Below, in pieces: positions 15,275 to 64,000 of a DNA stretch of 64,000 nt. The DNA comes from Turritopsis dohrnii (lineage: Eukaryota; Cnidaria; Hydrozoa; Anthoathecata; Oceaniidae). Position numbers and translations under genes: made by a program. Position 1 is the stretch's first letter; every line of letters begins with the position of its first letter. The notes below the pieces were generated by a model that worked only from the letters and a program-made list of their open reading frames with translations, was not told where the DNA came from and ran no database searches. The stretch is from NCBI GenBank assembly GCA_027922465.2, contig BQMF02000231.1, positions 1 to 64,000 on the forward strand. Reading direction: 5' to 3'.

Positions 15275-15525
15275 GATGGCTGAGGCACATTTGTAAAAGT
15301 TCTTTGTAGCTCATAGAGGAACCTGTTTCGTTTTTGTCGAAATCGTCAAGGATCATTTGATTAATTTTGGCAAAAATGTTGATGCCTTTTGCCACGTAAT
15401 TTTGGATGGAGTATAGTGACTTCTCTTTGGCGTTAACATAAATAACATTCTTTTGATAGCCTGCATTTAGTTCAATTTCCCTGTTCAGTTTTGGGACCTT
15501 TGTTTCCAGATTTCCTGGTCGGGAG
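15204..15525 (-). pseudogene. LINE ORF1 C-terminal fragment
   Basis: Open from the truncation point to a stop at 15204 (about 106 residues), including NVIYVNAKEKS and INQMILDDFD. It is in a different frame from ORF2 and overlaps its start, as in many LINEs. No zinc knuckle is present in this part. The family is not recognised. Confidence 0.5.
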
Positions 15526-19139: not shown

Positions 19140-22064
19140 TCATACGTATCGTTGTTGCATCCAATGCTCGTCTAAATTACGCTTGAATTCGCCAATGCTC
19201 TTTGCATGGGCAACAGATTTTGGTAGTTCGTTCCATGTTTTTACAGCACAGTGGTAAAACGAGTTGGTTTCTACCCCACGAATCCCGTCTTTCGGCGTCT
19301 GTCTTTCAATTTGATTTGCATGCTTCCTACTCGGTCGTGTTGTACGTTTGAATTTGCTAGACAATATTTCGGCGTCGTAATTGTGGAAGTGCTTAAATAG
19401 CTCAATCATATCACCACAGGCTCGACGGTACTTCAGGGACGGAAGGTTCAAATTCCGGAGACGTGTTGCATAGTCAAGATAAGAGAACCCATCAATGAAC
19501 TTTGTGGCGCGACATTGAACGTTTTCTACAGTGTTGATATCTTTCAGCAAGTGTGGACTCCATACTGACTGCCCGTATTCGAGATGCGGTCTTACAAATG
19601 ATGTGAAGAGTTTAACAAATAGATTGCCATCCAGAAAGCTAAAACTTCGCCGTATTAATCCCATCATTGCATTAGCCTTCTTTGTTTTCTCAGCCATATG
19701 CGCTTGAAAATTTAACTCACTGTCCAATAAAACTCCAAGATCTTTTTCTATGGACGTTGTTTCTAGTTTGTGACCATTTAGCGTGTAGGGGTAGGTACAT
19801 TTAATGTTTCGAGGTTTACCAAGGTGGAGAACGTGGCACTTTTTGTTGTTAAATTGAAGGAGCCACTTTCTTGACCATTCTTCTAAGCAGTTGATATCAT
19901 CTTGTAGTAGCTTCGCATCATCGTTTGAATTTACCTCTTTCATAAGCTTCGTGTCATCAGCGAATAAAAATATGTTGGATTTGACATTATCAGGTAGGTC
20001 GTTGATATAAATGATAAAAAGTAAGGGACCGAGAACACTTCCTTGCGGTATTCCACTCAATACTTCTGCTGGCTCAGAATCAGTTCCATTAACTCTTACT
20101 ACTTGTAGCCGATTTGAAAGAAACGCCTTTATCCATAGTAGCATGTTTCCATGAATGCCATACGCTTCGAGTTTTTTTAACAGTCTTTTATGCGGGACGG
20201 TATCAAACGCTTTGGCGAAATCAAAGTATATAGCATCAACGATTCCCCCTTTTCCAATAATTTCGGTACATTTATCTAAGTATAATAACAACTGAGTTGT
20301 TGTTGAGCGTCCTTTTATGAAACCATGTTGGTATTTCGACACAAGATTCAAGTTCCTCAGATGACTAACAATGGAATTTTTTATCAAAGTTTCCATAATT
20401 TTGCAAACAATGGATGTTAAGCTTATCGGCCTGTAGTTTTCTGCAATATTTTTTGGACCTTTTTTGTATATCGGGGAGACAATGGCTTTCTTCCAGTCCA
20501 CGTCCTTCAGCAAGTGTCTTTCGGTAAAGAAGAGTGAGTGGGGATACGATGTAGTTTTTAAGTTCAATTAGCATCATTGGGTGTATTTCATCTGGTCCAC
20601 AGGATTTGTTGGGGCTAAGTTTAAGAATAACCGACATGACATCTTCTTCGGAAATTTTGAGGTTAGATAATTTCTCTCGTGTTTGTTGTTCGAGTGTTGG
20701 AATTATTATATCTTTTTCTTTCGTAAAGACGCTGACAAATTGTCGCTGCAGAATATTAGCTTTCTCTTTGTCTTCGAATTTGATGGACCTCTCGTCAGCA
20801 TTTTCGTCCTGAGTTTGCTTCGTGTATACGCCCAGAACCTTTTAGGATTTTTCGTTGCTTCATCAGCAATGCCTTTTTCGAATGATCGCTTTTCTTTTCG
20901 GATTAATCCCCTAACTTTGTTCCGTTCTTTAGTGTACGCATTGCGGCTGGCTATGGTAATCACACCAAGATTATCTTTTTTTGACATCCATCGTCTAAAC
21001 AGTGTACGCTTATTTTTTATTGATGTTCGGAGTGATTGAGATATGGGGATGCTGCCTTTTAGATTCCATTTTGCTGCACCTTTACTAACAGGTACAAAAC
21101 GATTTCGCAGATCCATTAACTTTTCCTTGAGTGCGTTCCAAATTTCTTCTACTTTTTTGTTTTTGTTTTGGGCTACAAAGGTGTTACTCCAAGACGAAGT
21201 GTCAAGCTCTTCTCGCATAGAATCGTAATTTGCTTTGTGATAAACATGCCGCTTTCCATCTGTGGAGTAGTCTAAGTAACAGTGATAATTAAAAGAGATC
21301 ACAGAGTGGTCACTTTTGCCAAGCGGTGCCTGATGATCTATGTTTGAAACTTGCATTAATTCGTCAGTTAGTATCAGGTCGATTAATGATGGATTGTCTG
21401 TTCCACGTTGTCGCGTGGCTTCTTTTACGTGTTGAAAAAGATAACAGTCACGTACAGTCTCGATAAAATTCGATTCCTTACTTTCTTCATTGCAGTTGGT
21501 AGTCATGTTCCGCCAGTTGATACGCCTGAAGTTATAGTCGCCAACAAAGCATTTATGAGTATACTTTTTCCTACCACATACAGTCTTGAGTAATTCATTC
21601 AATTTTTTGTTGTTCTCTTCAGCACCAGTGCGAGGGGTGGGACTGCGATACATGCAACCAAACAAGAGCAAATCTCCAGCGTGAAGCTTTATTTCTAGTA
21701 AACAGACTTCTTCGAATTTGTTTAGGCCTTTAATTTGAATCACTGAATTTGATATTGATGAGTGAGTGTAGATAGCAATACCGCGACCAATAGTTGAATC
21801 TGCTTCCAAATTAACGTGGTGGAATGTGTAATTGGGTATATCGTAGTCTTGGCCCATGCGCTCGCTTCCATTTTTCGGTTTCATTTCGCAGATTGCAATA
21901 ATATGTGGCTTAGACTTTTGTACGCGATCTAAAAGTTCGACTTTCTTCGATGCTGTGAATTGATCTGCGTTGGTGTATAGAATGCGAAGAGAGTGGTGCT
22001 TATTGCTAAGATTTCTTCTCCGGTTAGATCTTGTTGGTAGCGTGTTTTGGTTTATGTCTTCCAA
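19140..22064 (-). pseudogene. CR1-like ORF2: endonuclease and reverse transcriptase
   Basis: From the ATG at 22064: endonuclease motifs YTNADQF, ICEMKPKNG, YRSPTPR, VGDYNFRRINW and GKSDHSVI. The reverse transcriptase follows: SCGPDEIHP, ENYRPISLTS, QHGFIKGRSTT, YFDFAKAFDTVPH, GIPQGSVLGPLLF and the catalytic FADDT at ~19951-19964. The C-terminal part (PHLEYGQSVWSP and beyond) ends at 19140. The frame breaks near 20815 (KLRT followed by DENADERSI in another frame) and near 20510-20560 (before DWKKAIVSPIYKKG). All catalytic residues are present, so only indels disable it. Confidence 0.85.
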
Positions 22065-22401
22065 AAGACATTTTCAGCGAGTTTACTTGATCAAGGAAGT
22101 CTTTAACACGAGATTTTTCTAAGTTAGTTAACGAGTCGAATCCATCAAGTTCTTGTGTATTTTCCGGCATTACCTTGTAGGGTGTAGTCTGTGATTCTAG
22201 TCGACCACCGCAGAAAAAGACGTGGATGTACTGAAGAATATATTGGCTTTTATATGAAACGTATTTTCCAAGAAGAAGATCACCTTTTTTAATAGTTTTG
22301 TGACAGATTATGCACTTTGCGGTACCCAACTTTGAGTGGTCGACATGGAATTTTTTTGTTGTGTTACATTTTTTTGTAAGGTCATCTTTGATTGAATGCA
22401 C
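22024..22401 (-). CDS. Small ORF between LINE ORF1 and ORF2, Cys-containing
   Basis: A 125-residue open frame from an ATG at 22401. It overlaps the ORF2 start (22064) in another frame, and ORF1 ends just upstream. It contains AKCIICHKTIKKGDLLLGKY and, about 25 residues on, HVFFCGG. This C-x2-C...H/C spacing with the I-K-K-G core resembles a PARP-type or related treble-clef zinc finger; the resemblance is by eye and weak. It may be the C-terminal exon or domain of ORF1 displaced by a frameshift, or a separate third ORF of this LINE. Confidence 0.45.
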   Translation of the reverse strand: MHSIKDDLTKKCNTTKKFHVDHSKLGTAKCIICHKTIKKGDLLLGKYVSYKSQYILQYIHVFFCGGRLESQTTPYKVMPENTQELDGFDSLTNLEKSRVKDFLDQVNSLKMSFGRHKPKHATNKI

Positions 22402-22405
22402 TGTT

Positions 22406-23799
22406 TTATTTTTTTGATTCTTTATTCGGGTTATTTTTTATAATTGAAAGGTCACTTTCTTTCGTATTTGCTGCAGAATGGGTTGACTCTTCAGGAACTT
22501 CATAAGACGGAGGCCGTTTTTTGGATTCCCTCTCACTTTCCAAATATGTTGGGATTCGCTTCCTTCTTCTTGGTTTTTCTCTTTCGCTTTCTCTCCCCAC
22601 CGTTTAATTAAAGCTCTTTCTGCCAATGTGTAGTCGTCTGTTACACTAATTTTTCTGAATGCTTCATTTCCTTTCAAATTTGAAAGGTTATTCATTACTT
22701 TCGCTTTATCATCGTTACTTTCTAGGATGATCTTCAAAGGTCTTATTATATCTGGTGATATCTGACCAAGTCGCATGACGTTCTTTATACCCACTGGTGA
22801 TACGTGTATATTTACCAGTAGCTCATCAAAAACGTCTCTATCATGTAGCTTGTTGGTTTTTTCATCAACGCCTGGTTTCAGCAATTCCATGAATGATGAT
22901 GTTACAGGACCTAAGCTTCTTTTGCTGATCTTCCGCTAACTCTTCATTTTTCGCATCAAGTATGATCTTTTGTATGTCGTTCTTCCTTTCGAATTTGCTG
23001 TTCTCACTTTGTTTAACCGCATTAGCGTATGAAAATATTTTGTCGTCAGGTTCAGGAGCATCGACATTTCGTTGCGGAATGATATCTTTCATAGTATTAA
23101 TCAGGGATTGTTTGATGCTTTCTTCCATTCTCTCCAGTTTTTCGTTCATTTTGAATTCTAGATGTGATATAGGGTCGTAGTTTAAGTTGGGCTTGCTTTG
23201 ATTCTCGCGCTGCAGAATATCGTGCGTCATACTTTCGTGCTGTGTTTTAAGCAGCATTTCGTTTTCTTGTTGGCCATCATTTTCCCCACGGTTTCCACCT
23301 GTCCATGATCTCAACTCACTCTCCAAGCTGTCAATTTTGTTCTTCAACTCAGCTTCTATTTTTTCGTTAGCCTTAATTAGCTCTTTGTTTTTCTCAATGG
23401 TGCCACTGAGGGCTGTGTTTCGTGCCTGTAGTTCAATGAGCAATGACTTTTGGTCATGCTTTTTCTGTCGCTGTCGAAAGACAATCTCGCAACGGCTGCA
23501 GATAGTTCCTCAACTTCTAATGATTGGTTCAGACGATCGTTCATTTGTCCTTCTGCCATATGCAGCACGATTTCCTTATCGACGGGGGTGCAGCTTCCGC
23601 ACCTGAATATATTGCCTTTTTTCTTTTTTTTACGGTGATTGATGATATTTTGTATTTCGTATGCGGGGAGCTTAGAGCACCGGTAGTGGACGAAGCGCTT
23701 ACATTCGCAGCAGGTGAGTCTGAAGTCTTGATTTTCACTTTCATTGTTACATACCGTCCACGTGCATGTAGCTGATTCGTTGCTTTCACTTTCTTCCAT
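22406..23799 (-). pseudogene. CR1-like ORF1: PHD finger, coiled coil, nucleic-acid-binding domain
   Basis: The first segment (23799-23460) holds a PHD-type zinc finger: CTWTVC, then CCECKRFVHYRC and FRCGSC. The second (about 23443-22890) is a heptad-rich coiled coil (ELQARNTALSGTIEKNKEL and onward) ending at NIIIHGIAE, the first strand of an RRM-like fold. The third (22885-22600) continues that domain (VMRLGQISPDIIRPLKIIL). A basic Arg/Lys/Glu-rich tail in another frame ends at 22406. Breaks are visible near 23460, 22880 and 22595. This architecture is usual for CR1/L2-type ORF1 proteins that chaperone element RNA. Confidence 0.75.
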
Positions 23800-23930
23800 T
23801 TGGTGTCGTAGAGTTTACAGGGAGATTCTTCTTCGCGTTCTGAGTTGTATTTCGGTGTTCTGTAGTGTTGCTTTTTTTTGTAGGATTTTAAAAGCTTGTT
23901 CACGGAGCTCTTGCAAACACGAACGCTCTA

Positions 23931-24889
23931 TTTGACGTCAAATTGGTATCCTTTTAAACCCAGAAGTTATAACTTCTAATATTTCAAACTCAAAATTAGA
24001 AAGTTTGGTGATGGTGTCAAGGCAAAATTTAAACTTATTACATTCACGAGCTAGGGAAACCCACTACCAATAAGTAGAAACCATCCACAATGACACTGCA
24101 TAAATTTTAGAACAAATTTTCGAACGCATGAAATCAATGTTGCAGTGACAAAAAAAAACTTTTTCAAAGCAAAGTATTTACAATGTTTTGATACAGAAAT
24201 GTCGAGAAATAATCGGAGTGCTTCACCCAAACCGAAAGAGCATGCCCTGATTTTTTTTTGAAGCAGATAATTCCACCACTTATGTGTTGAAGTGTTCCAT
24301 TCTAGAAATCCACTTTGCGTTCTTAAAAATGGTATTTGGCTAAATCTATTTATCAGAAATCATAAGTTGTTATGATTTTCACTCAAACCGTCACACTATA
24401 CATAAAACTAAAATGTTAGTGTTGTCCCCCACCACCACCATAAACTGTGTTAGTATGGATCATTAGCTAGCAAAATTAGGAAAAAAATAAAATCAAATGC
24501 ATAAATCAATAACACTATAGCAAATTATCGGGGAAAACTTTAGAAGTAAAAAGTACTTAGCTCAGCAGTCTTTATCTTCAAACAAGCAAGAATTTATAAC
24601 AAGGAAAACCTTCGGAATAAAATACTCCGTTCCTCAACGATTCTTTGTTTGATCTCCGAAAGTTTTTATTTGCTGTTCGAAAAATTCTAAATTCCCGCGA
24701 ATTTTTAGAACGAGAGGGTACGTTAAACATTTTAAAAAGTTGTTTTTTATAAAATAGAGAACAATGACAAAACCGAACTTCTATAAAGGGTTTCCCTTTT
24801 ATTAAATTAATTTTTATTAAGCTTAAAGTCACTAATTTCAAAGAAATCTAAACTTTGCATCACGCTAATGAAAAACAGTACCCCCGTCT
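23931..24889. other. No gene seen (interior of the AAGACGTCTT element)
   Basis: AT-rich, no supported frame. Confidence 0.5.
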
Positions 24890-25400
24890 TTTAACTATCG
24901 TTTTTGAAGAACGAGAAAAAGACGTCTTTGAAACATCTTGTATAGAGACCAGTGGAAATCCACTTTTTTAAGGACGACAACAAGGCGTATTTGAAACATT
25001 GAATTTTGACAAGTGAAAACTCGCTTACAAGAACAACGAATTGCAACGCATCACGTCACATCACAGCACAATACGTCTTTAAAACGTCTCGTTGCGACCA
25101 GTAAAAACACGTTTTACTGAGGACAAGAAAAAGACGTCTTTAAAACGTCTCGTAGCGACCAGTGGAAACTCGTTTTACCGAGGACAAGAAAAAGACGTCT
25201 TTAAAACGTCTCGTTGCGACCAGTGAAAACTCGTCTTTAAAGGACAACAAAAAGACGTCTTTCAGACGTCCTCTTAGGACGAAAATTAACTGGTTGTTCA
25301 AAACCCAAGAAAAGACGTCTCAAAGACGTCTTATCTGGTCGAAAGACGTCCGTACCAGTATGAGACCAGAAAAGACGTCTTAAAGACGTCTTTGTGTTTA
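24890..25400. repeat. Right subterminal AAGACGTCTT array
   Basis: Includes three tandem units of about 62 bp, each GACCAGT(G/A)(G/A)AAA-CTCGTTTTA-CGAGGACAAGAAAAAGACGTCTTTAAAACGTCTCGT-like, at ~25096, 25158 and 25219. Denser GACGTCTT sites follow toward the end. Confidence 0.85.
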
Positions 25401-25426
25401 CTGGGTATGTTATTGGAGCGTTATAA

Positions 25427-26355
25427 ACAACGAATACAAGGGCAGCATTTTAGGTCCTGTCCTATTCAATTTATATACAATTGATCTTGCAGAGAATGTT
25501 ACCTGTGATACCTTACAATATGCTGATGATTCCACCCTATACAAACATTCAAAACCGAAAAATCTAACAAAATGTATAGAAGAATTAGAATCTGATCTAA
25601 GAACTGTATCAACATGGTCTTCTAATAACCGCTTGGTCTTCAATGACCCTAAAACAAAGTTTATGCTATTCTCAACTACTCAACTAAGCAAGAGACATAA
25701 TCTAATCAACGAAAACCTTAAAGTAATGCATAATGGCAAACGTATTGAAAGAGTTACTGCAAAAAAGATTCTGGGAATTCATTTTGACCTATCCTTGTCA
25801 TGTCACGTAAATAATGTAATTCAATCTTCTTATGCGACACTTAGAAGTCTCCGTCAATTTAAACGCTTCACACCATGTAAAGTTCGTAAATCTCTGGCTG
25901 AAACTTTGATTATATCAAAAATTAGATATTGCTTAGTAGTATACAGTCAGCTACCAAAGTATCAAATTCAACGGCTACAAAAAACACAAAATACGGTTGC
26001 TAGCTATGTATTAGGTCGATACGTGAAAGAACCTGATATGATTAGAACATTAGGTTGGTTACCTATTAGTGAATTAATAAACTTTTCTATTGCAAATTGT
26101 TGCTTCTCAGCCTTACACGATCGAAACTGGCCGAAATACCTGCCTGTCAAACTACAAGAATCTAAGAGAACAACTAGAAAAGATATTGAAATGATGGTTG
26201 AACATGGTGAAAAAAACACCTTTAATGATCAAGTTTTTCATACTTTTATTAATTTACCAAAAGCTATTAGAGTAATTAATAATAAAAAAGTATTTTACAG
26301 GGAAGCTAAACGATATTATAGTGATAGAGCTCTTGTGAGAGTTTTATCTCTATGA
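25427..26355 (+). pseudogene. Non-LTR reverse transcriptase, C-terminal half
   Basis: A frame open for about 300 codons starts with KGSILGPVLFNLYTIDL and has the catalytic YADD at 25519-25530. It continues through the RT thumb (FNDPKTKFMLFSTTQL, ILGIHFDLSLSCHVN) to a stop at 26353. Fingers and most of the palm are missing. The sequence starts about 20 bp inside the right end of the AAGACGTCTT element. Either it is an ordinary 5'-truncated LINE, or the transposon inserted in it and the left part is lost; no upstream half lies left of 18260. A possible 3' end with AATAAAG is at ~26763. Confidence 0.75.
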
Positions 26356-29543: not shown

Positions 29544-30760
29544 TTAGCATGTGGCCTCAAGCGGCCTTTCGTGATTGAGGAATTTTATTTCATAAAATCT
29601 CCGTCGATCTAACATTTGGTTTCCAGTCTCCTTGCGCTCCTTATATCCATCGCGGAGCCAATTCGCCAATTCTCTGTTCAAAGCGTTATTATTTTTTAAA
29701 CAATTCTGCTTGAAATTAACTATGGATTTATTATAAAATGTTTGCCAAGTCGATGAATTGGACCAGGAACCTCGACTTAAAATATCTTTAATTGAAAGCC
29801 CTTTTAAACTAGCCATTGAGGTAGAAGCTGCACGGGTAGAATGGCCCTGAAACTTGGAAGTATCTATTCCAACTAAACATAACAAGGACTTGAGCCAGCC
29901 TGAAACAGTACTCGACACTACCTCTTTGTGAGGGTTGACATAGCTCAATAAGAGTTGGGTCTTTTCATTGCTCCTCCAACATTCAGTTCTTTTTAGGTAT
30001 TCATCCAAAACAGAGACTACACATAAAGTGCTGTCTGTAGAGTACCCATAAAATGTCAATTTTGGGGGTACCTTTCCTTTCCGCCACCCTTTATTCAGTT
30101 TTGAGAAATCAAAGGCATAAAAGTCCACGCCTTTTGCCAGGTAACGAATATCAAGAGTGTGAATTGAGCATGCTCTCGAGGCCGATGTCAATGCTAATAA
30201 CATGGTCAATTTTAGGGATAAAAATTTGTCAGACAATTCATCTGTCTTACCCAGTTTAGTGATATAATCTAAAACCTTGTTTACTCTCCAAATAAAATTA
30301 CATTTTGATTACATTTTGATTGAAGGTTCCTGAAAGTAATGCACACACTAAGTGGTTTTCTCCCACTGGTTTGCCCTCTATATATTCATGGTATGCAGAT
30401 ATGGCTGAACGGTAACAGTTTAAAGTGCGGTACTGAAAGCCCCTTTGAAACATATCTGCTAAGAAATTCATTACTTGAGAGACTGGGCATCGAACTGGAT
30501 CAATTTGTCTCTCACCACACCAGCTAGACCACTTTCTCCAGGACGATTCGTAATTAGCCAAAGAGCTTTCTCTCCTTGAATGGTGGACAAGTGAGGCTGC
30601 TGATTCAGAAATTCCTTGGCTTTGTAATCTAAGCCTGAAACTTGCCATGCCACCAGTCTTAATGTCTGGTTTTGTGCTAATGGGTGTACTTGCTCCAGAT
30701 GGTTGAGAAGTAGCCCTGGAAAAGTTGACAACATTATCGGCTTTCTTACTGCCATCTGAA
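29544..30760 (-). pseudogene. DIRS tyrosine recombinase
   Basis: The N-terminal SAM-like core-binding part starts near SQGISESAASLVHHS, followed by NYESSWRKWSSWCG and LNCYRSAISAYH. It ends in a frameshift at 30297-30318, where ATTACATTTTG is tandemly duplicated (11 bp). The catalytic part resumes as NFIWRVNKVLDYITKLG and runs to 29544. It shows the R of TSASRACS, the H-x2-R of GHSTRAASTSMA and the nucleophilic Y in TWQTFYNKS, so R, H, R and Y all appear intact. Apart from the duplication I see no other break. The final residues are encoded in the terminal repeat. Confidence 0.8.
29583..29675 (+). repeat. DIRS inverted terminal repeat (left)
   Basis: Complements 33049-33141 with only a few mismatches. 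The recombinase C-terminus is encoded through it. Confidence 0.85.
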
Positions 30761-32009
30761 GAAGCTGGCTGTACCAAGGCTGTGTTTGCCAGGCTGGGGT
30801 GATAATGATCATGTTTGAAATCTTCTCCCTTCTTATTTTCGCTAGAATTGCACTTATCATGCAAAATGGTGGAAATGCATAAGCTTTTTCCGTGGCTCAG
30901 TCTTGTTGCATTGCATCTGTTGCTACACTGAACGGATCTGGTTTCCATCAGTAGTACCTCTTTATTTGATGACTTAGTCTTGACGCAAAGAGGTCTATGG
31001 TTGGGTGGAAATATCTGTTGCAAATTTCCATGAATACCGTGTTTGCTAGTCTCCATTCTGAGCTGTCCTTGATGTTTCTGGACTCCCAATCTGCCCTGAA
31101 ATTCAATGCACTTGGAAGGTACTCTGCAGAAATTGTAATTGAATGTTTCAACAGGTACTTCCGTATTTCCTTTGAAATTTCTGTCATTTCTGCACTTGAT
31201 GTTCGCCCCATTTTCAGAAGATAGGACAAGGCACTGGTATTGTCTATTTGCAGGTGAATTGATTTTACCAGAGGAAACCTCTTTGTGAAAATCAACAAGG
31301 CATATTGAATCAACATTTCTGAAGATTGAGGTATTATCCTTCTTCCATTGCAGATGTCTAGATTTACTACCCACCAGAGGAGTTCCTCCTGAGATTTTCC
31401 GTTCAAGTAAATTATTTGCTGATACCCTCGAGAATTTTTTAGGGCTGAAATTTGTTGTTCCTGAAGGTATCGATATTGTAGCCTCGCTGGTAAAACTGCC
31501 TGTATAGTGGAACACAGACGATCTATCAGTTTTGTAAGATCCAAGAGGGTTATTTGTGGGTTTACGTACAAATCCCAGCACTGCTTCACAAGGAAGATGT
31601 TGCTCAAAAATTGGTTGGATTCGGGAAAGACTCGTGTGATGGCCCCTATCCCCAACATCTCGTGAATTTCCCTCTGGACAAGTTGTTTTTGTTCTTCTGC
31701 TCTTGGGATTGTATTGTGTGTTGGTTGTTTTGTAAAAGGAAGATTAAAACCTTTTACCAGTGAAATTATGCTTGGATCTTGTGTCAATTTCAGCCAAGCA
31801 GGTAGGAAGTATTTTAACCTTCCTGCCAATGGAATTTTTGGAATTTCTCCAGGAAATAGCCTCTTTATGAGAGGATGAACATGCTCCAATGCGTCCAGAG
31901 GAATCAGTTCTGGGAGATTTTGAGAGAAAGTTGGCATATTTGATTTTAAACTTTCTCTTAACCCTGTTTTGAAATGAATTTGGTCTATTTCCACCTTCTC
32001 CATAGCCAT
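30471..32009 (-). pseudogene. DIRS RT remnant plus RNase H, RT palm deleted in frame
   Basis: Reads from the ATG at 32009 through the pre-RT region (LPELIPLDALEHVHPLIK, LVQREIHEMLGIGAIT, FLSNIFLVK). It then jumps at ~31575 to QCWDLYVNPQITLLDL, which belongs after the RT domain. The central RT motifs, including the catalytic Y-x-D-D, are absent, yet the frame is kept. RNase H follows (HLQIDNTSALSYLLKMG, ALNFRADWESR, IDLFASRLS). Two in-frame TGA codons (~30950 and ~30902) interrupt YY-WKPDP and QQD-ATEKAYAFPPF. The frame then runs on to 30471. A wild-type protein would be roughly 180 residues longer. Confidence 0.75.
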
Positions 32010-32037
32010 ATCTTTGTTGCTGTTGTTTTAAGTTGTT

Positions 32038-32962
32038 TTAGTTTCGATTACCCGTGACTCGAAACAATCGTCTTCCACCATTATTTTGGGCGCTTCCCGG
32101 TGGAACGCCCTTGCGAAAGGGTCGTTTTCGGTTTGATGGTGACAACGAATATTGTTGGAAGGTTTCTCTTGACTTCTTTCGTGTTTTGACAATGTCTTCT
32201 AAGTGTTTCTGGAATTTTTTGCCAAAAAGTCCTTTTTCATCTTCTTCTTCTGATACTTCTTTTTTCTCTTTAAGAAGTTTTTTAACATCACGTGTTTCTT
32301 TGACAATATCATTTAAAATTGTAAACCTTCGGTTGTAATTGATCGAATTAATAGCTTGACCAATAAGGACTACAGCCTGGTCCGCATTTGTTACAAGTTG
32401 ATCAATGTTAATTTCTTGACTTGAATCTGGAGATTCTTTAACTTGATTCAGTTGGGACCACAGTTTTCCTAGTGGCCCCATAATTTGCAAGATTTTAAGT
32501 TGCATACGTTCCAAGGTTTCATCATGCTTCTTGGATTTTTCGTTAACTAATATTTTGACAAAATCATCAAGAATTTTCGGTTGGTTTAAATTATCTGGCA
32601 TGGGATTTTCCCCCATGATATTATCCTTCAAGTCTTTCTCCGGAATATAACAGTTCATGTGCTTGCTTACATACTTGCACATGTCACGAGGAAGACACCA
32701 CTTGTATTCATCTTCCTCTGTGATGATTGTAAATCGTTTAATAGGGTGCTCTTCTTATTCTAAATCAGAACTACTGGATTCAGAACTGCCCGAAGAAGAT
32801 GAGGATGGAGAATGTCGTCGTTTCGACTTTTTTCTTTTTCGTTTCCTTTCAGGTGGTGGTGACTCTTCTCCACGCTCTTTGGTGATGGGGGGCTCATGCT
32901 TTGAGTTTACTGACCCCTCACCGCCTGCACTTATTCAAATGTCTGCAGGTGGAGCTGACATG
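32038..32962 (-). pseudogene. DIRS gag
   Basis: An intact 214-residue segment (32682-32038) contains IMGPLGKLWSQLNQ, the helical run INSINYNRRFTILNDIV and LFGKKFQKHLE, all typical of DIRS gag. The Arg/Gly-rich C-terminus (RKRPFRKGVPPGSAQ) is nucleic-acid binding in character. Upstream the frame continues to an ATG at 32962 through a Ser-rich and Lys/Arg-rich stretch (ERKRKRKKSKRRH) but carries a TGA after SAPPADI and a TAA after SSSSDLE. The N-terminus is therefore broken. Confidence 0.7.
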
Positions 32963-41741: not shown

Positions 41742-41862
41742 CCAGCCGGCACATTTGTTAAAAAATCTCTGCGAAGGAGTGCATTTCTATATAAATATGC
41801 ACACAATTTCAATAAAAATTCTCTCCGTCACAGTGATTTTTTGACGATTTTGCCGACTGGGC
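41742..41862. mobile_element. 121-bp MITE (CCCAGT-GGCAAAAT family), copy 1
   Basis: One end reads CACATTTGTTAAAAAATCTCTGCG; the other, inverted, reads GGCAAAATCGTCAAAAAATCACTG. An internal GAAGGAGTGCATTTCT block is shared with the copies at 53801 and 63329. Confidence 0.7.
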
Positions 41863-54359: not shown

Positions 54360-55034
54360 AACTATAATAGGAATTAATATCAGTAGCAGAAATACGAAAG
54401 AAAATATTAACAAGATAGCAAGCACAAAGACGGTGAGAAAGTTAAAAGGCATGTTTTCTTCATTCCTGAGCCTCAGGTTTAAACATTAATCAATAACACC
54501 CATCTCGTTTAAACTTTCAAGGTTAGTGTTAAGTTTACTACAGGAAGTTTGAATAATCGAGGTCATTTGTAAATAATAAAAGTATACATTCAGTAATACA
54601 ATGAATAACATGGAAACGAGGTTGGTATTGTTGACTTTGCTATAATACAAATGTTTAAAAAAATCGACCAAGAAATTAAAAAAAAGTCGAGAACATCCAC
54701 TGTGAAGGAGAGCATAAACCTACAGAGGAGGGTGGGATTTTTCTAGTTTATCTACGGTAGCATAGAATTCAAGCACGACCAGTGCTGAATGATGTCGTTC
54801 GTGTATGAGGAAGATTTTAAAGTTCAAAACGATTAAAGGATAAGATTGTGGAAGAACTCTTGATAAAAATTGAAACCTGTTTCTTTCATTCAAACATGCA
54901 AAGGGCGGCTTTTATCATCTTTATTTATTGTTGCTACAACCTGTGACTTTTAATCAAGGATACGTCTGCAGTTCAATAGCGCTTCAATAGCGGCATTCAT
55001 CAATGGAAATGATATTACACGGTTGAAGTCTCAA
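54360..55034. other. No gene seen
   Basis: Noncoding flank of the Helitron. Confidence 0.5.
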
Positions 55035-55879
55035 TCTATATATACTAATCCGCGTTGTGCATACCACTTTTATTTTAGAGAGTGTTTTGTTTTTGTTTTT
55101 TTAATGGTCAAAATCTTCTTAATCGTGGTCATATAGCGGCAGTTCGACCAGTGAAGAAACCCTCAAAATGCCTATTTTTCAACATTTGTTTTGACACGTG
55201 ATCGCCGTTTCACAGTTTTTATTGGTTGCCGAAATCGGAAAAACCAAAGCAACCAATTCGTTTGAAAAAGTAAACAAATTAAGTTTTTTATTCAGTGCGG
55301 TTACGCTTGAGAAAAAATAAACAATACGAATAGACAATCGCAATTGTCTGTATATGTATATCAATCAAATTAATAGCAAGTTCACCAGTTCATTATAAAG
55401 TTTATCAGTTTATCGAAAGCGAAAGAATTACGTAACGAGGTAATAATTGTGTTTATTATTTTAAAGATGGCAAACTCCACGAAGATTTTTCCAAGCTGAC
55501 CTAAGAGACCTATTGACTCTTTTATTTTTCACATTAGGTTATTGCTGTTCCATTGCTGTCCTGTGTAGTAGAAAGAAAGATAGTTTTGAAAAGAAAGAAA
55601 GATAGATAGGTTTGTAACCTACACGTTGTTTGTTTGTGTTGTTCGTGATCACATCAATAATCAGTTTTCAGAGTCTCAGTTAATCAGTTTATCAAGTTCA
55701 ATTTTTATTTTCGCTTTCCCCTAGGTTGTTTAGCTCTCTGTTTGCTGCTGTTGACCCTACATTATTAATTTGTAGAAAGAAAGGTTTGTTTTCGCTTCCA
55801 CCAGGTTTTGTAGGTGCTGTTTTTCTTCACTGGGGGTGGTTATATTCCTTTCTTCTATTGTTTGTGTTTATGTATTGTG

Positions 55880-58800
55880 ATGTTTAATATAAGAGGCACT
55901 AATATTATTCCTGGCTTCCAAGCAGTTTTTAGGAATGGTCAGTTTGTTTTGCAGCCTCCTGATCAACAGCAAATGCGCTCTGTTATTCAGCGTAGGCATG
56001 CTAATGAGGATGTAGCTGAAGCAAGGCGCCAACAGCTTCAGGCAAATAACATCCAACCATTATTAGAAAATGAGAGGCTTAGAATCAACAATGCTCAAAG
56101 GCAAGTTGATTATCGTCAAGGTGAAGAGCCAGGTGAAAGATTAGCCAGACGGAATGAGAATGCACAACGTATGAGGGCTAGGCGTGCTGTTCAACGGAAT
56201 GCATTGCATCGTGCTGCTCGACAAGACCAAATGCCTGAGCTACATTATCTTGGTGCCATGGACAAGGTGTGTCAGTTTTGTGGTGCCAAGATGTTTACTG
56301 ACGAGAACAATTTTAAGTGTTGTCACCAAGGTAAAGTTCATTTAGATGATATTTATTATCCTGATGATCTTAAAGATCTTTTAGTAGGTGATTCTAATCA
56401 TTCAAAGAACTTTCAAGAAAATATTCGAAAGTTCAATAGTTCGGTTGCTTTTGCTTCGATGGGTGCAAAATTGGTTGTTCCACAAGGTCGTGGTCCGCCA
56501 GTTTTTCGTATTAATGGCCAGGTATGTCATCGAACAGGTAATTTACACCCACCACCGGGTATTCCTCCATCCTTTGGTCAATTATATATCTATGATGGCA
56601 TGGATGCGTTCAATGAGAGAATGGCAAGACCAGAAAATCAAGGTTGTTCTCCCGAAGTCATGCAAACTTTGCAAGACATCATTTTAAGGGAGAGTCCATA
56701 TGCAGCTGCTTACAAACACATGGGTGAGGTAGAAGCGGAGGAATTTCAACTTGCAAATGAACAAAATCGTCGCCCATCTGAGGTAAACGGAATGTATGAA
56801 AATTAATAATTAAAAATCTTTGAACTAATATTTCCAGATCTTTGCTATTGTTTTCCAGGTTAGAATGCATTTGAGAAGTGGTGGTGATCGGCGTCGATAC
56901 AATCTACCTCACCATGATGAAGTAGCTGCTGTTTTTGTTGGTGAAGATGGTGCACCACCATTGGCTCGGGATATCGTTGTTTACCCTAGAGATAGACCCT
57001 TGCAGGATTTGCCTGTTCATTCACCTAATGTTGATCCAATGGTGTATCCGGTATTTTTCCCAAGAGGAGAGTTCGGTTGGAGTTCCGACATTCCTCATGT
57101 AGCAGAATATGCAGCAGGCCAGCAACGTCGTACGACCATGCTGCAATATTATACTTATAGGTTTGCATTTAGAGAAGCTTTTAGCCCCATATTAAAAGGT
57201 AAAAGATTACTTCAACAATATGCTGTAGATTGTTACTGCAAAGTTGAATCTGACCGTCTTAATTATGTTCGTCAAAACCAGGGCAATTTCCGTGTTGAGC
57301 AATATCAAGGGCTCATTGATTATCTTGAAAATGTTGCAGAAAATCGTGGCCTTCATGCAGGCAGACCGGTGATTCTTCCGTCTTCCTTTCAGGGTGGTCC
57401 TAGGGCCATGCAACAGAATTATCAAGATGCTATGGCTATGGTTACTAGAATGGGCAAGCCGGATTTGTTTTGCACATTTACGTGCAATCCCAAATGGAGG
57501 GAGATCACGGAAAACTTAGATAATGAGCCTGCACATTATCGTCCGGACTTGATTACACGTGTTTTCAATTTGAAATTAAAAGCTCTTTTGGAGGATATAA
57601 ATAAAAATGGTGTTTTGGGAAAGGCCATTTCTCATTTGTATGTTATTGAATTTCAGAAACGTTCTTTGCCTCATGCTCATATTCTTATCCATTTAGCGCA
57701 AGAGGACAAACTTCGTAATGCTGATGACATTGACAGCTTAATTTCTGCTGAAATACCAGATCCTGAACAGGAACCAGAACTTCACAATATCATCAAGTCA
57801 TGTATGATTCATGGTCCCTGTGGGAATGCTAACCCTAATGCAGTTTGTATGGGAGATGATGGCAACTGCACCAAGGATTTTCCAAAGCGATTTTGTGAAA
57901 CAACCCAAATGAATGCAAATGGGTATCCACTCTATCGCAGACGTAACAATGGCCGTACTGTGAGGGTAAGAAATGTGGACTTAGATAATCAATGGGTAGT
58001 TCCATACTGTCCGTGGTTGTCCAAGAAGTATAATGCTCACATAAATTTGGAAGCATGTACCACGATCAGGAGCGTGAAATATCTCTTTAAATATGTTTAC
58101 AAGGGACATGATCGTGCTAATGTGGAGATTAATGAACGTTTGGAACATGACGAAATAAAAACATTTCTGGATGCTCGATATGTCAGTGCGCCTGAAGCAT
58201 TATGGAGAATATTTGAGTTTTCTATGCATGAAAAATCACATACTATTAAGCGATTAGCCGTTCATTTACCTGATCGCCATCAAGTTTATTTTAGAGCTGG
58301 TGAAGAGATGGCAGCAGCTGAAGGGGCATTAAAGGATAGTCACTTGACAGCATGGTTTAATCTGAACATAGACGATCCTGATGCACGCCGGTATCTTTAC
58401 TCAGATATTCCGTATCATTATGTTTTTCATGATAAGGAGAAAAAATGGAAAAAACGAAAAAAGACATTAAAACCAATAGTTGCTCGGTTATACAATGCTC
58501 GACCGTCAGAAGGAGAACGTTTTTTTCTACGAGTTTTGTTGTTGCATGTTGCAGGTGCTACGTCTTTCGAGGATTTGCGTACTTTCAATGGAGTTGTTTA
58601 CGACACATTCCGAGAAGCATGTATTGCCAGACGTCTTCTGCAAGATGATGCAGAATGGCACAATACATTGGAAGAGGCTTCAACGTTTCAAATGCCCCAA
58701 CAGCTTAGACAACTGTTTGTTACTATTTTGACTCACTGTGAGCCCTCTAATCCTCTTGAATTGTGGAATACATTCAAGGGGAATCTGTGTGAAGACTACC

Positions 58801-60380
58801 TTCGAACATTGGCTGTTGCTCAAGCTGAGCAAAGGGTTTTGGGTTACATTGATAATGTCCTGAGACAATTTGGTATGACTTTAACGCAGTTTAATCTTCC
58901 TGAATTGGTTCAACAGGTTGCTCAGGAAGAAGTTGATGTAAATATTTACATCAACAGGGCGGAACAGGTAAGGCCTTTGCTTAACGAACAGCAATTAGTT
59001 GTGGCAGATGCCATTTTGTGTGCAGTTTCAAATGTGCGTAATGGTTTAGCACAAGTTGAAACATTGTTTTACCTAGACGGACCGGCTGGCACAGGTAAGA
59101 CTTTTACATACAATTATGTTATTGCAGCATGCAGAGCCAGAGGTTGGAAAGTTGCTACTGCTGCATATACAGGTATTGCAGCCACCTTACTGTCTGGTGG
59201 TTGTACATTGCATTCATTATTTCGTTTGCCTGTTCCTGTTTTAGAAAATAGCGTATGTAATATAACACCGGCATCAAAACATGCAGAATACCTTCGAAGT
59301 GTCGACCTGTTTCTGATTGATGAAGCGACTATGGTTTCTATCCATGTTTTCCATGCTGTGGACAGATTACTCAAGGATATTTGTGGCAGTGATGCACTTT
59401 TTGGTGGCAAGGTTCTTTTGTGGGGTGGAGATTTTCGTCAGTGTTTGCCGGTTGTGAAAAAGGGAAAGCCAACCGATGTTATTGAAGTTTGCTTGACCAG
59501 TTCTGTGTTATGGGCATCAGTGGCGAAATACTCTCTCACTGAAAATATGAGAGCCAGACCGGAAGAGCAAGAATTCTGTACTTGGCTGTTGCAACTTGGC
59601 AATGGTGAACTTCCAACGAAACAAAGCGAACCTGCTAAAGGTTCCATCGAAATTCCTGATTGTTGTGTTGTTCCTAAAGATACTTCGATTATATCTGTTA
59701 TGTACGATGGACTTGAGCCTCACGAATATGCCACCACAGCCATTCTGACCCCGACAAATGACCAATCACTGATCATTAATAATGAGGTGTTGGACAGACT
59801 ACCTGGAGACGCAGTTTGCTATTACAGTGCTGATGAAGTGGCGTGTGACGATGAAGAAGAGCGGCAAAACTATCCGGTTGATTTTCTGAATAGTATTACA
59901 CCATCCGGTATGCCTCCACATTGTTTGAAACTTAAAGCTGGGGCTATTATTATGCTTTTGAGGAATCTGAACATCAGGAAGGGTCTCTGCAATGGCACCC
60001 GCTTGATTGTTCGTGAATTGTCGCATAACTTTATTAAGGCTGAAGTTTTGACAGGGTCAGCAGTTGGGGAGCTGATTTTCATACCTAGGGTTGAACTGTC
60101 ACCTTCAGATACAGGTATGCCTTTTGTATTAAAACGCAGACAATTGCCTATCCGTTTGGCCTACTCTTTCACTATTAACAAGAGTCAAGGTCAAACATTT
60201 GATAAAATTGGTTTGTTTTTGCAGAAACCGTGTTTTTCACATGGACAGTTGTATGTTGCCTGTTCAAGGGCAAAAGCATTTGGTAATGTTAAAATCAAAG
60301 TTGCCGGTACGGGTAAGCAAGGTTATATTAATGGAAAGATGTATACTCAAAATGTTGTCTTTCCACAGGTGTTGCTGTGA
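55880..60380 (+). CDS. Helitron Rep/helicase (RepHel), two exons, intact
   Basis: Exon 1 is 55880-56782 and exon 2 is 56859-60380. The 76-nt intron has GAG|GTAAAC and TTTTCCAG|GTT borders, giving 1,473 residues without a stop. The start is the first in-frame ATG (MFNIRG). Residues ~131-148 form a zinc finger (CQFC...KCC). The Rep domain has the HUH motif LPHAHILI (H573, H575) and the paired tyrosines YLFKYVYKG (Y709, Y713). The PIF1-type helicase has Walker A GPAGTGKT (~1042), Walker B LIDEAT, GGDFRQCLPVV, ENMRARPEE and the C-terminal INKSQGQTFDKIGL and YVACSRA. Rep nicks and joins single strands and the helicase unwinds during rolling-circle transposition. All key residues I can check are present, so the gene could be functional. 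Confidence 0.93.
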
Positions 60381-60389
60381 ATGTTGTGA

Positions 60390-60805
60390 TTGTCGTGGCC
60401 TATTCGGTTATATAACAAAATAGCATAAATACCTACAGTAGAGGCTACAGTTGATGTTTTTGTGGCTTCTTCTGTACGTCAGCCACTGTTTGATGTTGTG
60501 GCTTATTATAAGTGTAGTTTAAATACCTACAGTAGAGGCCACAGTTGATGTTTTTGTGGCTTCTTCTGTACGTCAGCCACTGTTTGATGTTGTGGCTTAT
60601 TATAAGTGTAGTTTAAATACCTACAGAGTGGCTGCTGTTAATAGTTGTTGTGGCTTCTTCTGTACGTCAGCCACTGTTTGATGTTGTGGCTTATTATAAG
60701 TGTAGTTTAAATACCTACAGAGTGGCTGCTGTTAATAGTTGTTGTGGCTTTTTCTGTACGTCAGCCACTGTTTGATGTTGTGGCTTATTATAAGTGTATC
60801 GTAAA
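60390..60805 (+). repeat. Minisatellite, ~94-bp unit, about four copies
   Basis: AAATACCTACAG recurs at 60428, 60521, 60615 and 60709. Units include TTCTGTACGTCAGCCACTG and TGTTGTGGCTTATTATAAG. It begins within about ten bases of the RepHel stop codon. Confidence 0.9.
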
Positions 60806-60979: not shown

Positions 60980-61063
60980 AACCAAAAGTCAGGGCATGCT
61001 CCATATTATCTCTCCATGATTGTAACTTTTGTTTTTTCTTCATTTAGAGCTATATAAACAATA

Positions 61064-62773
61064 ATGGGTGATGATTTTGAAAGCCCCATGGAATTGTCTC
61101 AGGGTAAAACATTATTTTTTTTAAACGATCTATTAAAGTAATAAAAAATACTTAAAGCTTATTGATTTCATTTTAGGGACAGAAGATAGACTTTTAGGAA
61201 AAGGTAAAAATTTTTGTTTCAGATGAAGATTTCTGCAGAACTTTCATGGATGTCTCAGGCTTTTCTGTATGCTATCGTTATAACATCATCCTTTCCTTCA
61301 ATAGATACTGATGGCATAGTAGATCCAGAAACGAGTAAGGATTTTTATTGAAACTACTTTGGTTTTCGATGTTTCCAATTTGTTTTTTCTTCATTTTTTT
61401 CCTTTTAAGTATATTATGAAGTTTATGACACCTACTTTTTAAACCTTTTTTTATTTAGATGCTTCTTCAACAGCTAATAGTAAGGGTCAATATACATTAA
61501 TGTCTCCTTTCCATATGTTGTAACTTTTACAATATCCTTATATATACTACTTTTTCAATGATGTATTTGCGCTTTATGCTGCCATTATAACATCATTCTT
61601 CCTTCATTAGATACTGGTAATGAAGATAATGTTGAACAGGGTAAGGATATGAGAGCTAGACCGGAAAAGCACACTAATTTGTTTATAATATATTGTGGAT
61701 TTCTGTATGCTGTTATTATTACATCTTCTTTCACTCTATTTGATATAGATACCAGTGAGACACTTAAAAAGAGTAAGGATTATTATTTGAATTGCGTTTT
61801 TATGTTCTATCCATATAGTTGCTTTCAAGTGTATGGGATTTTTGTATGACAGTCACTTTTTAATTTTTTTATATTTAGATGAAGCTTTACCAACAGCTGA
61901 TAGTAAGAGTTGATACACATTAATGTTCCATTGTTAGTGCCACATGTTTTTACTTTTACAATCACTTTATTACATTTCATTTAGTTGCATCATCATCATC
62001 GTCGTCAATAGCTGGAAGTAAGCAATATTTTTGTTTCATTGAAAGATTTGAGAAGTAAATCATATTATTCTTATTCTTAATGTATTTCCATGTTTAACAT
62101 TTTCATTTTCTTTGTCAGATTCTACACCTAATGATGGTGGTGAAAGAGGTAAGGATTTCAATCAGAATTCATTTCAATTTGTTTGAAGATGTAGTATTTG
62201 TAACCTGGGAATTTTGTATGAACATTACTAACATAATAACTTCTTCATATTTATTGATGTTTCATTACATGTCACAATTTTCTCAATCCTCTTATGTCAT
62301 TTCATTTAGCCATCGCTACATCATCTAAAAAGGGTAATACCTCTTATGATTTTAAGCTAAACAAGGTATTTGGCCTAGATTTGTGTCTTAATTGCCTTTT
62401 GTTTTTGCTTTTTTATAGACTCTCAAGCTACAGCACGTATGTTTCTCATTATAGATATTTTCAAATTTTACATGTACTTTTTCACTAACAGAAACTATTT
62501 CTACTATTTATTGTAGATACTTTCAAATCCTTTCTCACCTACCGCCATACGCATCCCGGCCCCCGGTCTCAGGCTGCGTATCGAAAATGGAAGAGTCTCG
62601 GGGGTCGGGATCATCCACAATTCAGGTGGAAAAAAAATCCAAAAAAATTCAAAAAAAATCATGATGCAACAACAGCTGTCTCTGTCGAGCAAAAGAATGA
62701 CCATGTAGTGCCTGAGAGCAGGCACACGATCTATAATAATTTTGCACCTTCAGTTTTCAATGTATTTAAGTGA
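61064..62773 (+). CDS. Micro-exon gene: 12 exons, ten of them 18-33 nt, encoding 185 residues
   Basis: Exons: 61064-61103, 61177-61203, 61305-61334, 61459-61479, 61611-61640, 61749-61772, 61879-61902, 61985-62017, 62119-62148, 62310-62333, 62419-62436, 62517-62773. Lengths: 40, 27, 30, 21, 30, 24, 24, 33, 30, 24, 18 and 257 nt. Every internal exon is a multiple of three and every junction is phase 1. Donors are mostly GTAAGG/A/C; acceptors end in TAG or CAG. Introns are 73-161 nt. An in-frame TAA nine bases upstream fixes the start. The first 100 residues (MGDDFESPMELSQ...) are about half S, T, N, D and E. The terminal exon is basic (YRKWKSLGG, KKNPKKFKKN). No signal peptide or membrane segment. 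The function is unknown and no family is recognised. It lies 680 nt after RepHel on the same strand. Confidence 0.7.
61305..61984 (+). repeat. Tandemly duplicated exon-intron modules within the micro-exon gene
   Basis: Exons 4 and 7 are paralogous, including intron flanks: TTTAG|ATGCTTCTTCAACAGCTAATA and TTTAG|ATGAAGCTTTACCAACAGCTGATA. Both are followed by GTAAG, then TATACATTAATGT or TACACATTAATGT. Exons 3, 5 and 6 start ATACTGA, ATACTGG and ATACCAG after related introns (TATGCT...TTATAACATCAT...TAG for exons 3 and 5, and TATGCT...TTATTACATCTTC...TAG for exon 6). Confidence 0.75.
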
Positions 62774-62944
62774 CCTTAAAAGTTTTAATTGAAAATTGAA
62801 TTGAATATTTGAATTTGATTATTTGATTTGATGATTTAATTTTATTTGAATATTTGATAATTGATAATTGATTTCATCCGTGCAGCTTTACACCAAAAAA
62901 TAATGATAGTCACTTAAATGCGTTGAAAACTGAAGGTGGTACTA
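62743..62944. repeat. Inverted repeat spanning the end of the terminal exon
   Basis: ACCTTCAGTTTTCAATG and TATTTAAGTGAC on the left return inverted as GTCACTTAAATG and CGTTGAAAACTGAAGGT on the right, with about 135 bases of AT-rich, TTGAT-rich sequence between. The last codons and the stop of the micro-exon gene lie in the left arm. Confidence 0.75.
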
Positions 62945-63328: not shown

Positions 63329-63436
63329 AGCACATTAAAAAATATCTGCGAAGGAGTGCATTTCTAAAGAAACCTACATATTTTCACTGAGGATGCTCTC
63401 CATCACAGTGTTTGTTTGATGATTTTGCACACTGGG
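63329..63436. mobile_element. MITE (CCCAGT family), copy 4
   Basis: CACATTAAAAAATATCTGCGAAGG at the left and GATGATTTTGCACACTGGG at the right. It matches copies 1 and 3, including GAAGGAGTGCATTTCT. Confidence 0.7.
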
Positions 63437-64000
63437 TTACAGATCTGCTAACTTACTTTTTGATTACATTTACAGATTGCCAGCAACGAATTATTGCAGA
63501 CAACGTCCGTATCCATTGCTCATGATATTTACTTCATCAAACATTTTGTCTATGCGAAGTTCGAAATAATATCGTTATCGTTACCTCACCAACTTATTTT
63601 GCAAGTTCGATGATGTATGAAATGGCTGTTTAAATGTCGTAGAAAATGGTTAATGCTTAATCAAAACGTTATTTAATACACCTTTCTGATGAACATATTT
63701 TGTTGTAATTACGATAACTAATAATTTATAAAATATATGCCTTTGCTGACTACAACAGACACGCATTCTTTATTAGCACCTGTAAAAACCTTTTACACTG
63801 GATGCAGGTCTTTTTGAACAGGGTTTTTGAAAAAGTTTTGGTGGGATCTGTGATACTAAGATATTTTTTATGTTATCTTATGGTTTTTAAATCTGAATTT
63901 CTGTTGCTGTTCTACGAAACCTGAACCTGTATTATTGTATCACTCTTTTTACCTCAGACACTGCCAGAACCTTATTTTCATGGGCTTTTAATATTATTCT
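63437..64000. other. No gene seen
   Basis: No frame, repeat or structure that I can support. Confidence 0.5.

Follow-up and report, generated by a model that had tools for sequence, protein, structure and literature searches.

A predicted micro-exon gene within a Helitron of the hydrozoan Turritopsis dohrnii

Exon organization, coding signal and product

The window analyzed in this work, that is, the whole 64,000-nucleotide stretch of Turritopsis dohrnii DNA in which positions are counted, carries a predicted micro-exon gene at positions 61064 to 62773 of the forward strand. A preliminary description, in which twelve exons were chosen by splice consensus, had proposed that these exons join in one uninterrupted frame with a common phase and that all ten internal exons are multiples of three. 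We rejoined the 12 predicted exons and obtained a frame of 185 codons plus a stop with all 11 junctions in phase 1, and the internal exons were confirmed to be multiples of three between 18 and 33 nt. The coding part of exon 1 (MGDDFESPMELSQ) lies at 61064 to 61103. It is followed on the same strand by micro-exons 2 (27 nt, 61177 to 61203), 3 (30 nt, 61305 to 61334), 4 (21 nt, 61459 to 61479), 5 (30 nt, 61611 to 61640), 6 (24 nt, 61749 to 61772), 7 (24 nt, 61879 to 61902), 8 (33 nt, 61985 to 62017), 9 (30 nt, 62119 to 62148), 10 (24 nt, 62310 to 62333) and 11 (18 nt, 62419 to 62436), and by exon 12 (257 nt, 62517 to 62773), which encodes a basic tail with the C-terminal motif YNNFAPSVFNSFK. 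The introns are 73 to 161 nt long, and the micro-exons account for 261 of the 558 nt (47%) of the coding sequence. Counterparts in other copies were found for exon 1 and for micro-exon 2 (TEDRLLEG or TENRLLEG), the peptide IATSSKK of micro-exon 10 is common to many copies, and micro-exon 11 recurs in many copies as SQATA or SQATE. Exon 12 is supported by a conserved core (FxxYRxxHPGPRSxAAxxxWxxxGGRDHPxFxW) and by the Hydra protein P0012, micro-exons 3, 4, 5, 7, 8 and 9 by the splice-site chain and its null resampling, and micro-exon 6 by the splice-site chain.

Any exon had been claimed to be skippable in frame, and all 1024 of the 1024 skip combinations of the ten micro-exons indeed stayed open. 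Intron 5 (61641 to 61748, 108 nt) is stop-free in frame and a multiple of three, so that its retention would add 36 codons and leave the frame unbroken. A conserved splice acceptor tract (TTGTTTTTTCTTCATTTAG, 61029 to 61047, forward strand) adjoins exon 1 on the 5' side, and exon 1 probably starts directly after it, at 61048. Exon 1 was alignable in 9 of 13 loci, and in these the tract showed 0 to 1 base changes; exon 1 itself was variable. It may be the acceptor of a 5' UTR intron or of a spliced leader, the latter because hydrozoans use spliced-leader trans-splicing, as described in the available part of PMC11067881.

Exons 3 and 4 with their introns form a tandem duplicate with exons 6 and 7, micro-exon 6 corresponding to the exon 3 region and micro-exon 7 to the exon 4 region. 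The two units were identical at 38 of the 48 sites aligned in exons and at 190 of the 242 in introns, indicating that exons and introns have diverged alike since the duplication. The ten micro-exons are thus not independent of each other. A possible extra micro-exon of 12 nt (AFK; 61819 to 61830, forward strand), which would be the eleventh, joined the splice-site chain only at looser thresholds and is also present in one of the copies (L036).

We searched the 64-kb window for chains of symmetric, phase-consistent exons of 12 to 36 nt, using generic splice matrices based on the general consensus and not fitted to this DNA. At thresholds of 4/4, the longest forward-strand chain consisted of exactly these ten exons, as opposed to a chain of 1 on the reverse strand and of 2 or less in 20 resampled windows. 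At thresholds of 3/5, 5/5 and 2/4, the chain comprised 9, 5 and 11 exons compared to null maxima of 2, 2 and 4, respectively, and at 4/6, the strictest acceptor setting, it comprised only 2 and was no better than the null. Among 3000 second-order, composition-matched resamplings of the locus, the longest chain had 4 exons and occurred once, and chains of 3 occurred 8 times. A frame-blind choice by splice score also gave ten exons at the locus, of which 8 were exact and 9 were multiples of three; it skipped micro-exon 6, picking a 6-nt exon there, and favored a 56-nt version of micro-exon 10. The frame-blind score did not single out the locus, as the rest of the window reached 58.3 and the locus 44.5. 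The unusual property of the locus is its shared frame, not its splice score.

The micro-exons also exhibited a codon-position bias in GC. G or C occupied codon positions 1, 2 and 3 in 41, 45 and 12 of 86 codons, respectively, and this contrast was reached by none of 20000 within-exon permutations; without exons 5 to 7, the counts were 27, 36 and 8 of 60. In five other lineages, the corresponding counts were 145, 159 and 64 of 325. The bias was absent in exon 1 (p 0.48) and in the tail (p 0.64). Overall, 101 of 261 bases were G or C in the micro-exons, compared to 306 of 1152 in the introns.

The predicted product has the two-part composition described before: its first 100 residues are acidic and S/T/N-rich with a pI of 4.05, as opposed to the tail, with a pI of 10.5 and a net charge of +12. 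The N-terminus (MGDDFESPMELSQG), with an in-frame stop directly before the ATG, is hydrophilic, and direct reading agreed with the earlier statement that there is no signal peptide. No known domain was found in the product with Pfam. The structure predicted for exon 12 alone was of low confidence (mean pLDDT of 61 and pTM of 0.20), and its two helices may resemble HMG-type boxes.

Protein searches with the spliced product and with exon 12, which covered proteins of similar length that have short words in common with the query, gave no relative. Owing to this restriction, they missed a tail that lies within a Hydra protein of 1461 aa and that came to light on reading the Helitron matches. Residues 138 to 175 of Hydra vulgaris LOC101240834 (P0012) match the tail core in 20 of 39 columns, with a pair E-value of 1e-11. 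P0012 was the sole significant tail match among 120 listed Helitron proteins (E 1.3e-9 in a single-sequence search); the profile value of 1.8e-20 is not independent, because the Hydra row was included in the profile. By eye, P0012 shows S/A/P/T repeats of 7 to 8 residues, then the tail core and then a Helitron protein, and the repeats look like translated micro-exons. No relative was found for exon 12 in viral and genome collections or for the tail alignment in genome contigs, and Rfam gave no match at gathering thresholds. One match of the tail alignment, to the viral locus L046 (5e-5), was taken as chance, since its contig resembles a phage and is rich in GC, and the matching frame differs from the 756-aa frame there. 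A resemblance over 23 bases between intron 5 (61648) and the helicase frame (59545), noticed by eye, was not listed by blastn-short at E 0.01 and was dropped.

An inverted repeat lies at the end of the gene, with its left arm (62745 to 62774) over the last codons and the stop and its right arm at 62909 to 62938. It was present in 28 of the 29 alignable loci among the 33 compared, with loops of about 39 to 133 nt, and was missing in L013. The pair CTTCAG/CTGAAG of the window is replaced by CATCAG/CTGATG in L031 and L040. As the pair changes on both sides between lineages, the hairpin seems to be kept.

The Helitron around the gene

The preliminary description had missed that the gene sits inside what is, by its ends and its main protein, a canonical Helitron. 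The element occupies 9327 bases of the forward strand, from 55035 to 64361 of the contig (C231; the window ends at 64000), and is delimited by the start of homology between copies, by a 5' end with TC after an A and by a 3' end with CTAG before a T. Its parts follow in the order of 5' end, Rep-helicase, 94-bp repeats, micro-exon gene, and 3' hairpin with CTAG before T, and the second gene starts 0.7 kb downstream of the Rep-helicase on the same strand. These features indicate an autonomous-type Helitron of about 9.3 kb. The gene thus belongs to an element with many copies and is not a free-standing host gene, and we consider it nearly certain that the micro-exon gene is borne by a Helitron.

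The main frame of the Rep-helicase (56829 to 60380, forward strand) encodes 1183 aa with Pfam matches to Helitron_like_N (1.8e-57) and PIF1 (1.2e-52). It is preceded by an N-terminal open stretch at 55814 to 56806 on the same strand, a stop-to-stop frame with tblastn matches adjacent to the helicase in copies, which is probably spliced to the main frame; a similar N-terminal part was seen by eye within one protein in relatives such as P0001. A Rep (HUH) domain and a PIF1-type helicase in one protein, a 5' TC, a 3' hairpin followed by CTRR, and insertion between A and T are all characteristic of Helitrons and are present here. No endonuclease was found by Pfam in the 1183-aa frame, as opposed to Helentrons (Helitron2), in which an AP endonuclease is fused to the helicase at its C-terminus. 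We searched for protein relatives of the Rep-helicase by scoring the 8000 candidates that shared most words. Among the best 30 matches, 9 carried an organism name, and 8 of these were from Hydractinia, Hydra or Clytia, with 56 to 58% identity; the ninth was from a pseudoscorpion, with 44% identity. A comparison with viral contigs gave no match. Between the two genes, a 94-bp tandem repeat in four copies lies at 60426 to 60798 on the forward strand, and a pattern scan found no relative of it.

The ends were read from comparisons between copies. Homology starts at 55033 to 55035 in 5 of 20 loci (L010, L011, L013, L014 and L016), and the A and TC that flank the 5' end at 55034/55035 in the window are likewise found in L011, L013 and L016. 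At the other side, homology reaches the end of the window in L012, L014 and L016. The 3' end was CCCGTAAAA..TTTTACACGGGATACTAG followed by T in L014 and L016, with another 5' end at once or a few bases further on, and L010 and L014 begin directly after the CTAG of another copy. For the element of the window, the 3' end GCCGCCTTGGCGGCTAG followed by T, at C231:64361, was read in L029, where a Helitron 5' end comes next; from this one copy, we infer C231:64361 as the terminus of the element. A hairpin precedes the CTAG and T in L014, L016 and the element of the window.

Copies in the genome and divergence of the gene part

We searched the genome (435.9 Mb in 891 contigs) and found at least 40 DNA matches to exon 12, counting its own (40 scored out of 129 candidates), and at least 150 protein matches to the tail core (150 of 630 candidates scored). 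About 10 kb around the best 20 of the 39 other exon 12 DNA matches were compared. A near-complete upstream Rep-helicase on the same strand was observed in 5 of these 20 loci, in one piece in L015 and L016 and in several pieces in L010, L011 and L014. The Rep-helicase of L009 was cut by the edge of the compared stretch, L017 and L019 had the last quarter, and L013, L024 and L027 had remnants. The absence of a Rep-helicase within about 7 kb upstream in 9 of the 20 loci and the presence of fewer than 5 micro-exons in the chain in 9 of the 20 indicate that many copies are decayed or non-autonomous.

Rep-helicase copies were scored for 39 of 3395 candidates, own included; these are the best-preserved and closest copies and not a random sample, with 96 to 100% identity and 33 of the 39 free of stops. 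A tail match was found 1693 to 4391 bases downstream on the same strand in 37 of the 39 (median of 1960), and on the opposite strand within 9 kb in none of them. The other two, on C593 and C491, had no tail among the matches listed. Full-length tails were present in 10 of 12 copies beside intact Rep-helicases, and the tail of L038 diverged after 43 residues.

Further loci with the same exon pattern, for which the preliminary description had suggested a genome search, were indeed found. Frame-aware chains, which require multiples of three by construction, had at least 5 micro-exons and ended at the tail in 11 of the 20 exon-12 loci, and the 12 loci selected for a well-matching Rep-helicase next to them included 11 with chains of at least 5. 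The exception was L030, in which the tail is 4.4 kb away and beyond the 3.1 kb compared. For L041, whose chain ran to a wrongly chosen acceptor, tblastn coordinates were used to define the tail. The frame-blind choice, applied to 13 related loci that had been chosen from 33 for their good chains, gave a chain in 12 of them (there was none in L036), and 88 of the 96 exons were multiples of three. When only splice-site pairs with scores of 5 or more at both ends were considered, 36 of the 39 lengths in six lineages were multiples of three, compared to 27 of 84 at positions 1 to 55000 of the window on both strands.

The number and lengths of the exons differed between copies. The exons of L015 were 15, 27, 24, 24, 48, 24, 24 and 18 nt long, and those of L027 were 24, 30, 24, 24, 24, 24, 24, 30 and 18 nt long, with identical two-exon units recurring at a spacing of 264 bases. 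Such repeats indicate that some micro-exons were gained through tandem duplication of two-exon units.

Some loci showed larger arrangements. L030 (C38:197200-200300) has a Rep-helicase that is 99% identical and a second Helitron 5' end about 1.9 kb in, and its gene appears interrupted, as if one Helitron had inserted into another. At C257:196430-238863, the tails have a spacing of about 9.25 kb and Rep-helicases lie in the intervals, that is, as head-to-tail tandem Helitrons. Tails are evenly spaced at 3902 bases at C11:1465998-1473936 and at 3383 bases at C28:178686-185577, which is too close for full elements and may reflect tandem arrays of small units with the micro-exon gene but no Rep-helicase.

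The two genes differed strongly in divergence. For five elements compared in ten pairs, the Rep-helicase showed a pS of 0.026 to 0.112 and a pN/pS of 0.06 to 0.11, whereas the tails of the same elements showed a pS of 0.28 to 0.54 and a pN/pS of 0.41 to 0.72. The tail had been described as constant, which holds within one gene but not across copies, given this 28 to 54% difference at synonymous sites. The 55 pairwise comparisons among 11 tails gave a median pN/pS of 0.52 (range of 0.31 to 1.02); 10 of the 21 tails (L009, L017, L019, L020, L022, L025, L034, L035, L037 and L039) were left out as near-duplicate, partial or frame-shifted. These ratios indicate that the tail is constrained on average, albeit much less than the Rep-helicase. 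The two levels of pS are incompatible with one history and one mutation rate, which points to exchange of the 3' part between lineages or homogenization of the Rep-helicase. L036 is a mosaic, with much of its left part 91 to 94% identical to the window and its tail 72% identical. The fast divergence also covers the introns and the 3' end, and exchange of the whole 3' part is thus no less probable than selection acting on the protein. In our view, the gene has probably diversified by exon turnover and exchange, and we are confident in the anatomy and this mode of diversification taken together.

Relation to known systems and possible roles

In the working definition of PMC7653826, as far as its available part goes, a micro-exon gene (MEG) has at least 7 exons, of which at least half are shorter than 70 nt and divisible by three, with a run of at least 4. 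The gene described here falls within this definition, with 12 predicted exons, 10 of them of 18 to 33 nt in a run of 10. Of the nine named Rep-helicase relatives, eight are hydrozoan, which makes a hydrozoan host probable, although a transposon protein may pass from one species to another, and the earlier claim of a micro-exon gene outside the flatworms is supported. MEGs are not restricted to schistosomes, as tapeworms have them as well (PMC7653826). In the available parts of PMC8293314, PMC7653826 and PMC5825161, the MEGs of Schistosoma, Echinococcus and Hymenolepis resemble the gene described here in the long run of short, symmetric and skippable exons, in exon duplication and in fast evolution. 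The claimed schistosome layout is correct for the run of symmetric exons. Schistosome MEGs also yield protein variants through differential splicing, which the 1024 open skip combinations would permit here. In schistosome MEGs, symmetric exons of 6 to 36 nt make up about 80% of the coding sequence, and their products have a signal peptide and are secreted or membrane-anchored, according to the portions of PMC5825161 and PMC8293314 available, whereas the share here is 47%, the N-terminus as read directly has no signal peptide, and no sequence relationship was found. In addition, flatworm MEGs have introns of up to about 5 kb (PMC10526429, available part), as opposed to 73 to 161 nt here, and the gene here is transposon-borne. 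Schistosome MEGs lie in TE-rich regions and are not described as TE-encoded in the available part of PMC8293314. Among the records listed in our literature search of open-licence PMC papers, there was no account of a transposon-encoded micro-exon gene.

The element is like canonical animal Helitrons in its Rep-helicase, 5' TC, 3' hairpin with CTRR, and A and T flanks. However, animal Helitrons typically have a single Rep/helicase frame (PMC4067079, available part), and here there is a second, intron-rich gene. The same portion of PMC4067079 gives the RPA, OTU-protease and SET genes of plant Helitrons and Helentrons as proposed aids to transposition. They are similar as extra genes on rolling-circle transposons, but they encode recognizable enzyme or DNA-binding domains, as opposed to the micro-exon layout and lack of a Pfam match here. 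Hydra P0012 shares the tail core within a Helitron-helicase protein, but there the tail comes before the helicase within a single predicted protein. In head-to-tail copies, the gene would lie ahead of the Rep-helicase of the following element, and the fused P0012 model may be a join of two such copies.

We propose that the transcript would be spliced by intron definition across the introns of 73 to 161 nt and that a spliced leader would perhaps be joined at the conserved acceptor, freeing the gene from the Rep-helicase transcript. The product would consist of a modular acidic region, probably disordered, and a basic domain. The length and content of the acidic region would be set by exon number, and perhaps by exon skipping, and the region could act as a changeable contact surface or spacer. 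The basic domain would bind nucleic acid and serve Helitron movement or shield the element from host silencing. Since the micro-exons share one phase, duplication, loss and crossing-over in any intron keep the frame, and this part can therefore diversify quickly between elements. Regulated exon skipping is suggested tentatively, at somewhat less than even probability, and the same applies to a nucleic-acid-binding accessory role, for which neither Pfam nor the fold gave a supporting domain. The retention and fast change of the gene would be consistent with a role in movement or against silencing, but an anti-silencing or conflict role as such we consider unlikely. It is somewhat unlikely, too, that the gene is a transposon-made combinatorial generator, in which micro-exons are skipped, duplicated and swapped and each Helitron lineage has its own version of a basic accessory protein, perhaps outrunning host silencing.

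All micro-exons might instead always be included, so that the layout would add no protein variety within a cell and would be a record of exon duplication in a disordered region. We give this possibility close to an even chance. Short introns favor splicing of each intron in turn, and both the fairly uniform splice sites and the visible exon gain by tandem duplication (exons 3-4/6-7 and L027) agree with it. A common phase at 11 junctions allows exons to be skipped, but it would equally arise if phase-1 exons were duplicated. Accidental joining in frame of splice-like sites of AT-rich DNA has a negligible probability: the sites were originally picked by eye and splice score without the frame fails to set the locus apart, but the resamplings never exceeded a chain of 4, the micro-exons show a codon-position bias, and the layout is kept in diverged copies, which makes chance very unlikely.

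The origin of the gene was considered in the same way. A host micro-exon gene might have been picked up by the Helitron and be hitchhiking without service to the element, as Helitrons are known to capture host genes (PMC4289320 and PMC4067079, available parts) and many copies are frame-shifted or reduced. We regard this passenger capture as unlikely, because the gene keeps the same position beside 37 of 39 scored Rep-helicases, the tail has a median pN/pS of 0.52 and is of full length in 10 of the 12 copies next to intact Rep-helicases, a Hydra Helitron protein contains the same tail core, and no host copy was identified among the 150 of 630 tail candidates scored, few of which were inspected. 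A true relationship to the schistosome genes, through descent or transfer, would account for an exon layout as in flatworm MEGs; it is extremely unlikely in view of the absent signal peptide, the 47% micro-exon share, the short introns and the lack of a homologue when the full product or exon 12 was searched against proteins (short-word relatives of similar length).

For a micro-exon gene that is carried by a Helitron and diversifies by exon turnover and exchange, several consequences would follow. The micro-exon layout would extend outside the flatworms and into a mobile element, and the many copies in one genome would serve as natural replicates of how exons are gained, lost and exchanged. 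An animal Helitron would gain a second gene, kept beside 37 of 39 scored Rep-helicases and diverging far faster than they do. It would become testable whether phase-symmetric micro-exons arise to diversify proteins under conflict. If the combinatorial generator is real, micro-exon genes would be a convergent answer to conflict, of blood flukes with vertebrate immunity and of a genomic parasite with its host genome. Such genes tend to escape gene finders, and more of them may sit in transposons.

Two minor observations concern the rest of the window. A 32-base stretch in the 3' region of the Helitron (63335 to 63366) is 97% identical to a stretch far upstream (41758 to 41789). Other mobile elements, with reverse transcriptases recognized by Pfam, lie at 12411 to 15310, 19140 to 26355 and 29544 to 32754, and the frames at 29.5 to 32.8 kb resemble, by eye, a DIRS-type element.
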